A stretch of DNA of 64,000 nt, taken from NCBI GenBank assembly GCA_022821065.1, contig JAJEEK010000027.1, positions 59,733 to 123,732 on the forward strand. Reading direction: 5' to 3'. The translations under genes and the position numbers were made by a program. Each line of letters opens with the position of its first letter. The stretch's first letter is position 1. This DNA is from Candidatus Poribacteria bacterium. GTDB lineage: Bacteria > Poribacteria > WGA-4E > WGA-3G. This document shows, piece after piece, positions 27,325 to 33,009 of the stretch. A model generated the notes under the pieces. The model made no database searches. It worked only from the letters and a program-made list of their open reading frames with translations, and was not told where the DNA came from.

Positions 27325-27356
27325 TTGACAAATTTGTGGAACTGTGTTACCATAAT
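27325..27356 (+). promoter_or_regulatory. Probable promoter for the zinc-ribbon gene
   Basis: TTGACA (27325-27330) is followed by TACCATAAT; either TACCAT at 17 bp or CATAAT at 20 bp could be the -10. The predicted leader is about 115 nt. Confidence 0.4.
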
Positions 27357-27476
27357 ATAATAAACGTATCAGCGCGACTGCTTAAAGTTAAATGCACCTT
27401 GGCGTGGCACAGCATAAGGAGCGATTCTCTTCTGCTGTCAAGGTTCCCACCTCCCCTGTTAACAAGGAGGAACACC

Positions 27477-27824
27477 ATGCCGTTTTGTCCACAATGCAAC
27501 GCTACGTATAAAAAAGCTATCTCGATATGCCCGGATTGTCAGGTAGACCTCGTGCCGCAAGCAGCACAGACCGAAATTTCGGAGTATGGGGACTGGTACG
27601 CCATTGAATCTGTCCCAAACGAATTAGCCGCGAATATCCTCCGAAGTGTCTTAGAGGATGACAATATCCCTGTTTATGTACGCTGCCATGATGTCCCTTA
27701 TTACGGTGGTGTAAAAGGCAACGCTGGGCAATCTGAATGGGGCGATATACTTGTGCCAGCCAATTTAGTGCCACGCGCGCGGGGATGCCTCAAAGCCTAT
27801 TTCGATTCACTAAAGGAAGAGTGA
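27477..27824 (+). CDS. Small protein with N-terminal zinc ribbon and DUF2007-like domain
   Basis: AAGGAGG precedes ATG 27477 by 6 bases, so this start is preferred to 27336. The 115 residues have a zinc ribbon CPQC...CPDC (C4, C7, C18, C21), then YAIESVPNELAANILRSVLEDDNIPVYV and a closing ILVPANLVPRARGCL. The latter is the DUF2007 putative signal-transducing fold (a ferredoxin-like domain seen next to PII-like systems). The ligand is unknown. A basic small ORF follows 21 bp downstream. Confidence 0.75.
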   Translation: MPFCPQCNATYKKAISICPDCQVDLVPQAAQTEISEYGDWYAIESVPNELAANILRSVLEDDNIPVYVRCHDVPYYGGVKGNAGQSEWGDILVPANLVPRARGCLKAYFDSLKEE

Positions 27825-29304: not shown

Positions 29305-29892
29305 ATGAATATGGAAACAGAATTGGGTTTGGGTGAACAACAATCCGAACCAAACGTTGAGACACCGGAACCACAAGCAGAAAAACCAGAGCAATCCACG
29401 CCAGGGAGTGGTGAGTGGAATGCTGACGAGATGCTAAGCCAACATTTCGATCAACCCGTCCGCTTTGTCACTTATACCGGTCTAAAGGACCTGTCCGTGG
29501 TCAAAACGAAATCGTATACGGTATGGGGGACGTATGCTAACGGCGAACTGCTTAAAATGGCGAAAGTGCACGTTTTGTTTGCGTTTCCGAAAGAGAAGAT
29601 GGCGGAGCTGAAACCGCATATAAAAATCAGGGCACCGCTGAAAGCCGAGAACCTTGAACCGATTGAGACCATAGCAGAGCGGTACCATGTTGATGATGAA
29701 CTTCTTGAGCAGGCGAGGGATAACAAATCCAACGTGACCATCGTCACTCGTGCGGGGTACGTTTTGGCGGGTTGTATTGAGGATTTTGACAAATATGTGT
29801 TGTACATGCGAATCGGGAAGGAGATGGTGATCGTGTACCGACACGGCTTGTATGCGTTCACAATCGAGGAACAATCCGAGGACGCATCATAG
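29305..29892 (+). CDS. Protein with a C-terminal Hfq-like Sm domain
   Basis: The 195 residues have a disordered acidic N-terminus (1-40, Gln/Glu/Pro) and a middle domain. A C-terminal segment at about 142-190 (NVTIVTRAGYVLAGCIEDFD, then KEMVIVYRHGLYAFTI) follows the Hfq pattern of E. coli: x-IxxxxGxxLxGxIExFDxFVxL, then VYKHA-I-T. Both Sm1 and the YKH-like Sm2 (VYRHG) are present, so RNA binding as a ring is plausible. The middle domain (about 50-120, YTVWGTYANGELLKMAKVHV) may be a second Sm-like copy. It starts 10 bp after the SLBB gene and ends 24 bp before the restriction enzyme. Confidence 0.65.
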   Translation: MNMETELGLGEQQSEPNVETPEPQAEKPEQSTPGSGEWNADEMLSQHFDQPVRFVTYTGLKDLSVVKTKSYTVWGTYANGELLKMAKVHVLFAFPKEKMAELKPHIKIRAPLKAENLEPIETIAERYHVDDELLEQARDNKSNVTIVTRAGYVLAGCIEDFDKYVLYMRIGKEMVIVYRHGLYAFTIEEQSEDAS

Positions 29893-29916
29893 GCTTTAAC
29901 TGATAACCACAACTCC

Positions 29917-32900
29917 ATGCCACATCCAAACATCAGACCGACCCACAAACCGATCAAAAACTATTACGCCGAACTTGAAGAATATGACAGCGTCGGTGCG
30001 GAACATGAGGGTGCCGTCCGAATTGCATTTCAGAATCTGCTACAACACTATTGCAGACAAGCAGACCTTATCCTCGTCTGCGAAAAGACACATTACACGC
30101 CAGAGAATAAACGGATAACACCGGATGGCGAAATCGTCGATACCTTCGGCTTACCCTACGGCTGCTGGGAAGCAAAGGATACACAGGACGATCTCTACGT
30201 TGAAGCAGATAAGAAGTTCGCTGCAGGCTATCCGTCGAAGAATATCGTCGTCCAATCGCCGACGCATGCGCTGCTGTTTCAACACGGGCAGCTCCAATTG
30301 GATTTGGACATCACCGAACCGAGAAACCTCGTCAATGTGCTGCAGACCTTCTTCGCGTATCAGGAAGAAAACATCTCAGCGTGGCATACGGCTGTTTCGG
30401 AATTCAAAGAGACTGTCCCCGAACTCGGCGAGCAGTTATCAGCACTCATCGAAACAGAACGTCAGAACAACGCGCGATTTCAGGAAGCGTTCACTCACTT
30501 CCATCAGCAGTGCCAGACCTCCATCAACCCGAACCTCTCCATCGCTGCGGTAGAGGAGATGCTTATCCAACATCTGTTGACCGAACGCATCTTCCGCACC
30601 GTTTTTAATAATCGCGACTTCACACGCCGTAACATCATCGCACGCGAAATCGAGAACGTCATCGACGCACTCACCTCACAGGCATTCGACCGTAACCAGT
30701 TCCTACAGAGTTTAGACCCGTTCTACGTCGCAATTGAGCAGACAGCTGCCACTATCACCGATTTCTCACAGAAACAGGGATTCCTTAACACCGTCTACGA
30801 GCAGTTTTTTCAAGGCTTCTCCGTTAAGGTCGCAGACACACACGGCATCGTCTACACACCGCAACCGATCGTCGATTTTATGGTCAAAAGCGTCGAGCAT
30901 ATTTTACAGACTGAGTTCAACCGCTCCCTTTCGGATACCGGTGTGAATATCATTGATCCATTTGTTGGGACCGGCAATTTTATTGTCCGTATCATGCAGG
31001 AACTCGAACCTATCGCGTTGGAACGGAAGTACACCGCCGACCCGCCGGAACTCCAGTGCAATGAGGTGATGCTCCTACCTTACTATATCGCCAGTCTCAA
31101 TATTGAGCACGAGTTCTACACAGCGACGCGTCGGTATGTCCCCTACGAAGGTATATCTTTGGTGGATACATTCGAGATGGTAGAAGACCGCCAGCTGCAA
31201 CTCCTCACCCAAGCGAACACAGCCCGTGTTGAAAAGCAGAAAGAGACCGACATGTTTGTGGTGATTGGCAATCCACCGTACAATATGGGGCAGGTCAATG
31301 AAAACGATAATAACAAAAATCGGAAGTATGAGACGATAGACAAGCGGATTGCAGATACTTATGCCAAAGACTCTAAAGCAACGCTCAGAAACAAACTCTA
31401 CGATCCTTATGTAAAGGCGATTCGATGGGGATTGGACAGGATTGACGACCAAGGTGTTGTCGCCTTCGTAACAAATAACAGTTTCCTCGACGGTGTAGCG
31501 TTTGATGGCATGCGGAAACATCTTGCTGAAGATTGCGACGCTATCTATATTTTTGACTTAGGCGGGAATGCGCGGAAAGGGTTAAAGGTCTCTGATGCGA
31601 ATGTGTTTGGGATTCGCGTCGGCGTGAGTATCAATCTGTTTGTGAAGAAAAAGGACAACGCCTCAGATTCACCGCGTATCTACTACTACCGTACCGATGA
31701 CTTGTGGGACAAAAAGCAGAAATTCAGTTTTCTCAGTGAATGCCAGCATACGGGCAATATCCCCTGGCAGCCGATTCAGCCTGACGCACGCCAGACATGG
31801 CTCACTGAAGGACTCCATCCAGAATTTGATACTTTTATTCCTATAGGAAGTAAGGAAACAAAGAACGTTAAAAATAGTAATGGCGAATCTATTTTCAATA
31901 TCTATTCTTATGGGGTCGTTACGAGTCGAGATAATCTGGCGTACTCGTTTGATTTTGAACAACTACAAAAACAGGTCAGCACATTCATTGAAATATACAA
32001 TACCGCCGTTGATCGGAAAACACGACATAACCCCCAAGATCCTGTTGAAAATTTTATAGACACGACCAATGTACGCATCAAGTGGAGTCGTCAGGTTAAA
32101 GCATCACTGAAAAAACTGGAATTAAGCACGTATGAAGAGACAAACTTCCGCAACGCACTATACCGTCCCTTTTGCCAAAAACATCTCTACTTTGATAACT
32201 TCTGGAATGAGGAACGTTATCAACAACATAGAATTTTCCCAACGTCGGAAACTGAAATAGAAAATCGGGTAATTTGCGCTGGTGTTTATGGCCGTAAAGA
32301 ATTTTCTGTTCTGATGAGTAAATTTGTTGTTGATGGGAATTTCTATACTGACCCACAACAATCCTTCCCCTTCTACACCTACGACGAAGATGGCACGAAC
32401 CGTCGTGAAAATATTACCGATTGGGCATTGACAGAATTCCAAAAGCACTACGAAGACGACTCCATCACCAAGTGGGACATCTTCCACTACACCTACGGAC
32501 TTCTGCATCATCCCGCCTATCGCGAAAAATACGAGGCGAACCTCAAACGCGATTTGCCACATATCCCGTTTATTCAGGATTTCTGGGGATTCGCGAAAGC
32601 GGGTGCGCAGTTAGCGGATCTCCACGTCAATTACGAATCGCAACCCGAATACGATAAACTCAAGTTCGTTCAGAAGCCGGATACGCCGCTCGATTGGCGT
32701 GTCGAGAAGATGAAACTCTCGAAAGACAAAACCCAAATCGTCTACAACGGTTTCCTGACACTCGACGGTATCCCAGAAAAAGTTTTCGATTACCGACTCG
32801 GCAACCGTTCCGCGTTGGAGTGGATAATTAATCAGTATTGTGTTAAAATAGATAAGCGCAGCGGCATTGTGAACGACCCGAACCGAGCAGACGATCCGCA

Positions 32901-33009
32901 ATATATCGTCAAACTCATCGGAAAGGTGATTACAGTTAGCTTGGAGACAGTGAAGGTTGTTGAAAGGTTGCCGGACTTAAAATTAGAAAATCGACAGTTT
33001 ACTATCTAA
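29917..33009 (+). CDS. Single-chain restriction-modification enzyme (type IIG / ISP-like) with N-terminal PD-ExK nuclease
   Basis: The 1030-residue protein has a nuclease-like N-terminus with PD-ExK residues (D75, E85-A-K87 in WEAKD, and E31). An N6-adenine methyltransferase core follows with motif I IIDPFVGTGNF (near 345) and motif IV NPPYN (452-456). The C-terminal specificity-type region contains NALYRPFCQKHLYFD and QQHRIFPTSE, resembling the C-terminal domain of type ISP enzymes. The length is well short of the roughly 1600 residues of ISP enzymes, and no DEAD-box helicase (DEAH, SAT) is visible, so it is closer to type IIG. It would methylate and cut DNA as one chain. The Hfq-like gene precedes it. 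Confidence 0.83.
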   Translation: MPHPNIRPTHKPIKNYYAELEEYDSVGAEHEGAVRIAFQNLLQHYCRQADLILVCEKTHYTPENKRITPDGEIVDTFGLPYGCWEAKDTQDDLYVEADKKFAAGYPSKNIVVQSPTHALLFQHGQLQLDLDITEPRNLVNVLQTFFAYQEENISAWHTAVSEFKETVPELGEQLSALIETERQNNARFQEAFTHFHQQCQTSINPNLSIAAVEEMLIQHLLTERIFRTVFNNRDFTRRNIIAREIENVIDALTSQAFDRNQFLQSLDPFYVAIEQTAATITDFSQKQGFLNTVYEQFFQGFSVKVADTHGIVYTPQPIVDFMVKSVEHILQTEFNRSLSDTGVNIIDPFVGTGNFIVRIMQELEPIALERKYTADPPELQCNEVMLLPYYIASLNIEHEFYTATRRYVPYEGISLVDTFEMVEDRQLQLLTQANTARVEKQKETDMFVVIGNPPYNMGQVNENDNNKNRKYETIDKRIADTYAKDSKATLRNKLYDPYVKAIRWGLDRIDDQGVVAFVTNNSFLDGVAFDGMRKHLAEDCDAIYIFDLGGNARKGLKVSDANVFGIRVGVSINLFVKKKDNASDSPRIYYYRTDDLWDKKQKFSFLSECQHTGNIPWQPIQPDARQTWLTEGLHPEFDTFIPIGSKETKNVKNSNGESIFNIYSYGVVTSRDNLAYSFDFEQLQKQVSTFIEIYNTAVDRKTRHNPQDPVENFIDTTNVRIKWSRQVKASLKKLELSTYEETNFRNALYRPFCQKHLYFDNFWNEERYQQHRIFPTSETEIENRVICAGVYGRKEFSVLMSKFVVDGNFYTDPQQSFPFYTYDEDGTNRRENITDWALTEFQKHYEDDSITKWDIFHYTYGLLHHPAYREKYEANLKRDLPHIPFIQDFWGFAKAGAQLADLHVNYESQPEYDKLKFVQKPDTPLDWRVEKMKLSKDKTQIVYNGFLTLDGIPEKVFDYRLGNRSALEWIINQYCVKIDKRSGIVNDPNRADDPQYIVKLIGKVITVSLETVKVVERLPDLKLENRQFTI

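Follow-up and report, generated by a model that had tools for sequence, protein, structure and literature searches.

Hfq is a general RNA chaperone; why, then, should an Hfq-like protein be encoded between a polysaccharide exporter gene and a restriction enzyme gene? The question is raised by a stretch of 64,000 nucleotides (the window) from contig JAJEEK010000027.1 of a sponge-associated Candidatus Poribacteria bacterium, where an open reading frame (ORF) for a 195-residue protein follows an SLBB/Poly_export exporter gene and precedes a single-chain restriction-modification (R-M) gene. The preliminary description of the locus took the product for an Hfq-like protein that is fused to an unknown domain and linked with an exporter. 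The present analysis indicates instead that the gene is a member of a defence-associated branch of tandem-Hfq proteins. With moderate confidence, we favour the reading that tandem-Hfq proteins of this branch work with phage-defence enzymes as an RNA-binding ring, either fused to them or free in a defence slot, and that the free form is a module released from an operon and kept by selection.

Domain architecture of the tandem-Hfq protein

The Hfq profile PF17209 matches residues 131–189 with 41.1 bits (E 1.4e-10; gathering score 27), which bears out the Hfq-type Sm1 and VYRHG motifs noticed earlier in the last part of the protein; the best PDB match is S. aureus Hfq (E 4.7e-8), and the hhalign comparison of this second Sm domain with E. 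coli Hfq gave 96.7%. The match to TIGR02383, the NCBIfam Hfq equivalog model, scores 40.3 bits, below its cut-off of 61.7. VYRHG is the counterpart of VYKHA, and the AlphaFold2 (AF2) model combines the Sm fold with this YKHA-type Sm2 motif, the whole model matching Hfq crystal structures in Foldseek. Y164, Y178, R179, H180 and G156 are conserved in the alignment of relatives (H180 in 45 of 47, R/K179 in 45 of 47 and Y/F178 in all 47); we take them to correspond to Hfq F42, Y55, K56, H57 and G34 in E. coli numbering.

The AF2 model, a single-chain (monomer) prediction built on the 47 relatives, contains two Sm-like units, one with a helix at 40–47 and strands within 52–95, the other with a helix at 131–139 and strands within 143–187 (predicted local distance difference test, pLDDT, ~95). 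The N-terminal two-thirds, previously called different and unknown, thus proved to be a disordered tail (~1–38) and a second, diverged Sm-like domain (AF2, Foldseek). Modelled by itself, the first half retains the helix and five strands, and LSm and Hfq entries head its Foldseek matches, with a target TM-score up to ~0.76 and E of 0.1–0.2. An attempt to prove its Sm nature from sequence only failed, the hhalign score lying near that of shuffles, and the predicted structure was used in its place; the first half is Sm-like by predicted fold, a likeness short of proven homology.

The window protein shares with Hfq (PF17209, TIGR02383) the Sm fold of a helix and five strands, the Sm2 motif Y-R/K-H-G/A, and the aromatic and Lys/Arg-His positions of the proximal face. 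Unlike Hfq, with its one Sm domain per chain, it carries two Sm folds and an acidic disordered tail, and defence fusions occur in its branch. Three chains would close a six-domain Sm ring, where R179, H180, Y178 and Y164 may line a proximal-type RNA site; the ligand would be single-stranded, probably U-rich RNA. The 176-position model NF010691 (PRK14091), annotated as RNA chaperone Hfq and presumably a tandem form, resembles the window protein in exceeding the length of a single Hfq, but with one stretch matched the window protein scores only 18.4 bits, the model's cut-off being 270. Identity with FlgV was considered and rejected: once annotated as Hfq, FlgV is a protein with two transmembrane segments and no relation to Hfq (PMC11607428).

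Phylogeny, distribution and enzyme fusions

The tandem-Hfq family was defined by a two-domain alignment (A1), of which the window protein is itself a member and whose profile it matches over its full length (E 2.1e-67). In a maximum-likelihood tree of 58 tandem-Hfq modules, drawn from a survey of 85 Poribacteria genomes, a supported split (97/90) separates the window protein, its exporter-locus relatives and all enzyme fusions, 32 rows together, from the cold-shock, core and other housekeeping-like forms. Most neighbours of the fused genes match PADLOC models, with GmrSD paralogues, type IIG enzymes and UvrD helicases frequent among them. Ten large neighbours of genes on the housekeeping side served as a control, and nine of these had no PADLOC match; in both sets the neighbours were selected for their size and interest rather than randomly.

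Sixteen large proteins in the Poribacteria genomes bear the module. Seven are GmrSD restriction enzymes (L035, L060, L076, L093, L125, L126 and L129), among which the L125 protein has two modules and that of L129, identified by BLAST, ends at the contig end. The detection of both GmrSD_N and GmrSD_C in L035, L060 and L126 likens them to type IV restriction enzymes of the GmrSD / HEC-06 / SspE-like kind, from which they differ in the C-terminal tandem-Hfq module, often followed by a cold-shock domain. Four more are fusions with TmtA, a Tiamat-like Sacsin/GHKL ATPase, the module being C-terminal in L052 and L069 and N-terminal in L037 and L047; PADLOC TmtA models score 356 bits in L052 and 214 bits in L037, and the other two were assigned by BLAST to L052. 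These proteins depart from Tiamat in that the TmtA match leaves the tandem-Hfq part uncovered, the TmtA has a DrmD-like SNF2 helicase as its companion, and the module stands at either end. Because it is found at both ends, TmtA calls for at least two fusion events, and without a functional link these would be difficult to account for.

The remaining fusions are with UvrD helicases (four: L067, L124, L127 and L128) and with a DnaQ/RNase H-like exonuclease (one: L064, 9373–10422), and their standing as defence proteins is less certain, since the PADLOC UvrD models are broad. The UvrD fusions have a GrpE-like region, a GIY-YIG insert in most cases, and S1 domains in L124 and L127; a UvrD paralogue of 571–572 residues is encoded upstream of all four. 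The DnaQ-like fusion faces two genes of the opposite strand, one for a UvrD-like helicase and one for an ISP-like enzyme. That cold-shock and S1 domains are repeatedly found next to the module speaks for nucleic-acid binding. The clearest partners of the module are the TmtA, GmrSD and UvrD-type enzymes of related genomes, and the repeated fusion to, and neighbourhood with, antiviral enzymes suggests that an RNA-binding module has been recruited into bacterial immunity. No published account of tandem-Hfq/defence-enzyme fusions was found in the open-access literature, nor any relevant one of tandem Hfq, of Hfq in Poribacteria or of Hfq with GmrSD.

The A1 profile matches 80 of the 85 Poribacteria genomes and all 56 of the good ones. 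Most encode one protein of about 310–350 residues with a cold-shock domain and tandem Hfq, plus accessory copies; in most Poribacteria genomes the Pfam search finds no conventional Hfq. The preliminary description proposed looking for a canonical Hfq in the genome that contains the window, and the answer is twofold: the Pfam search finds the window copy only, and the candidate role of sole Hfq was rejected when the profile search revealed a 339-residue cold-shock-domain and tandem-Hfq protein (G000:C98:16425-16898; L131:8883-9902). This latter type, which has relatives in almost every Poribacteria genome, is probably the housekeeping form and core RNA chaperone of the phylum; many of its genes have a 189-residue gene downstream at a spacing of 8 bp. 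Outside the phylum, clear tandem forms occur in 5 of ~300 sampled genomes, two with a cold-shock domain judged by eye, and a plasmid search with the A1 profile gave no match. A 538-residue frame of another phylum (L161, G181:C53) reads, also by eye, as tandem Hfq with a ParB-like C-terminal domain.

The variable slot behind the exporter

In the window, the Hfq-like ORF begins 10 bp after the exporter gene and ends 24 bp before the R-M gene, the spacings reported earlier being correct, and a Shine-Dalgarno-like CAGGAGA lies just 5' of it. The exporter is single-copy in 33 of 38 genomes of the genus. A check for a conserved neighbourhood, suggested by the preliminary description, found tandem-Hfq at 16 of 33 exporter loci (15 as a separate ORF, one fused in line); it is missing at 16, and one locus is cut by a contig end. 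The 16 loci without it comprise 11 with an ISP gene alone (seven uninterrupted, four broken) and five with DrmD-like and/or TmtA genes. Given these loci, tandem-Hfq is not an obligatory part of the slot and has no statistical association there with TmtA or ISP, and the exporter, kept in 16 genomes without it, is probably the conserved anchor of the slot rather than a partner. The link with defence genes proposed earlier is real and stronger than could be seen at that point, whereas slot variation and ISP copy number speak against the exporter and the R-M enzyme as dedicated partners.

The same variability could mean that the window protein is an ordinary accessory Hfq paralogue, a small-RNA chaperone or mRNA regulator, whose defence neighbours are incidental to an insertion hotspot: the slot is highly variable, tandem-Hfq is not bound there to TmtA or ISP, and ISP genes are abundant, with 2–16 copies per genome. 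We consider this unlikely, as this branch forms in-frame fusions with TmtA (at both ends), GmrSD, UvrD and DnaQ-like enzymes at other loci while housekeeping forms are unfused, and the core role appears already filled by the cold-shock-domain protein.

The slot also offers clues to the origin of the free form. The order in L052 is exporter, DrmD-like helicase, TmtA-tandemHfq fusion and ISP, and L034 has the same order with tandem-Hfq as a separate ORF. The tandem-Hfq ORFs of L041, L042, L043 and L046 start with DrmD residues 1–62 (55–61% identical), continue with TmtA residues ~843–900 and then enter the module; these chimeric ORFs read as the signature of an in-frame deletion. Their N-terminus, and that of L037, had been taken for a separate KOW/Tudor-like RNA-binding domain, which was rejected once it was recognised as DrmD 1–62; likewise, genes of ~1020 residues in L037, L047, L048, L058 and others, at first taken for ISP by length, proved to be DrmD-like helicases by BLAST. 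The window ORF has no GHKL/Sacsin ATPase domain (Pfam, PADLOC) and is thus not itself a TmtA; it aligns with residues 1041–1241 of the L052 TmtA, the start of its tail resembling the stretch directly ahead of the module there, a part that is short and suggestive only. The stand-alone form was most likely freed by loss of the rest of a DrmD-like helicase and TmtA-tandemHfq operon and then selected; the reverse order, with a free gene fused into TmtA, may also be compatible with the tree.

Such a history would fit a functionless leftover of the deleted operon as well, to which the DrmD and TmtA remnants in L037, L041, L042, L043 and L046, the TmtA fragment adjoining the L044 copy and the alignment of the window ORF's N-terminus with TmtA all lend colour. 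The ratio of non-synonymous to synonymous substitutions (dN/dS, by Nei-Gojobori type counts) speaks against it: values of 0.20–0.53 in 13 pairs of stand-alone genes, and of 0.25–0.30 between the window gene and its four closest relatives, show that the stand-alone gene is retained under purifying selection. Fifteen stand-alone copies persist at diverged loci, and the ORF is intact where the adjoining ISP gene is broken or lost (L039, L043, L046 and L047), so that a leftover is quite improbable.

The R-M gene was earlier called a single-chain R-M enzyme, in agreement with its Pfam domains (ISP_coupler, N6_Mtase/Eco57I and Type_ISP_C) and a full-length match to PADLOC REase_MTase_IIG; the nuclease is recognised by motif alone, a D...WEAKD pattern at the N-terminus conserved in nine homologues. 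The coupler, N6 methylase and ISP specificity domain liken it to type ISP/type IIG enzymes (LlaGI-like, MmeI-like). Unlike the LlaGI type, which joins nuclease, helicase, methylase and specificity parts in one chain, its 1030 residues revealed no helicase or Walker A motif in Pfam searches and motif inspection, hence it stands nearer to type IIG. The family is strongly expanded, the window's genome having 11 copies. Since the genus genomes have several copies each, and since at the four loci named above the neighbouring copy has decayed or disappeared although tandem-Hfq is intact, the R-M enzyme does not look like a dedicated partner. A dedicated regulator of the R-M gene next to it, comparable to a C protein but working at the level of the mRNA so as to delay the nuclease, would suit the 24-bp spacing, the apparent co-transcription in the window (where the scan found no terminator-like site between the genes on the + strand) and the known ability of Hfq proteins to repress translation, but is highly improbable, the gap to ISP being ~230 bp to several kb with other genes between in most relatives, ISP often occurring without tandem-Hfq, and tandem-Hfq persisting beside broken ISP.

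Promoter and terminator scans of the window performed no better than shuffles, and an Rfam scan of it found no RNA family. A small zinc-ribbon/DUF2007-like protein is encoded upstream of the exporter (27336–27824), with a similar-sized gene at the same place in relatives. In many exporter loci the ISP gene is followed by a conserved 253-residue gene (L042:13015-13776, L052:13910-14671), which was not found in the window.

Table 1. Genes of the locus and domains of their products, in window coordinates
Feature	Coordinates	Strand	Evidence
SLBB/Poly_export polysaccharide exporter, 390 aa	28122..29294	+	Pfam SLBB_2, SLBB, Poly_export
Tandem-Hfq protein (two Sm folds), 195 aa, defence-associated branch	29305..29892	+	PF17209, AF2, tree, dN/dS
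Disordered acidic N-terminal tail, aa 1-37	29305..29415	+	pLDDT 55-70
Diverged Sm-like domain (first of two), aa 38-114, one helix and five strands	29416..29646	+	AF2 pLDDT ~95; Foldseek
Second, Hfq-type Sm domain, aa 128-190, VYRHG Sm2 motif	29686..29874	+	Pfam, PDB match, AF2, hhalign
Type ISP/IIG single-chain R-M enzyme, 1030 aa	29917..33009	+	Pfam, PADLOC REase_MTase_IIG
Putative PD-(D/E)XK-like nuclease region, aa 1-160	29917..30396	+	motif-based inference
ISP coupler domain, aa 164-282	30406..30762	+	PF22240
N6-adenine methyltransferase domain, GTGNF + NPPY	30781..31566	+	PF02384/PF07669, motifs
Type ISP C-terminal specificity domain, aa 658-1000	31888..32916	+	PF18135, 323 bits

A possible role in defence

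Several observations weigh against a tandem-Hfq ring working with defence enzymes. The hhalign score of the first Sm domain against Hfq (14.0) is marginal next to the best shuffle (13.5), its Foldseek E-values are just 0.1–0.2, and the distal-face residues of classical Hfq are not retained. The tree groups the GmrSD rows, so the fusions are not all independent, and long branches make the exact placement of some fused rows unsure; UvrD helicases and DnaQ-like exonucleases occur outside defence too. Of the nine TmtA genes that are largely intact in the exporter slot, four have no tandem-Hfq, and it is also missing from the seven ISP-only loci whose ISP gene is uninterrupted; the exporter and ISP genes have dN/dS of 0.11–0.18, so the stand-alone tandem-Hfq is under weaker constraint than its neighbours.

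Should tandem-Hfq nevertheless serve defence, the ring would supply RNA binding and oligomerisation to the enzyme and possibly sense phage or host RNA, and the free protein may work in trans, its target being either TmtA-like or R-M enzymes or else the transcript of the R-M gene beside it. A more specific proposal, put forward only tentatively, is that the ring is a shared module for RNA sensing or RNA-gated activation of several unrelated immune enzymes, namely the TmtA, GmrSD, UvrD-type and DnaQ-like ones, the window gene being its free-standing form.

The combination of a cold-shock domain with tandem Hfq probably gives Poribacteria a recognisable core RNA chaperone, and, if the role of the defence-associated branch is as proposed, RNA binding would be part of how DNA-targeting defence systems are assembled, triggered or restrained.
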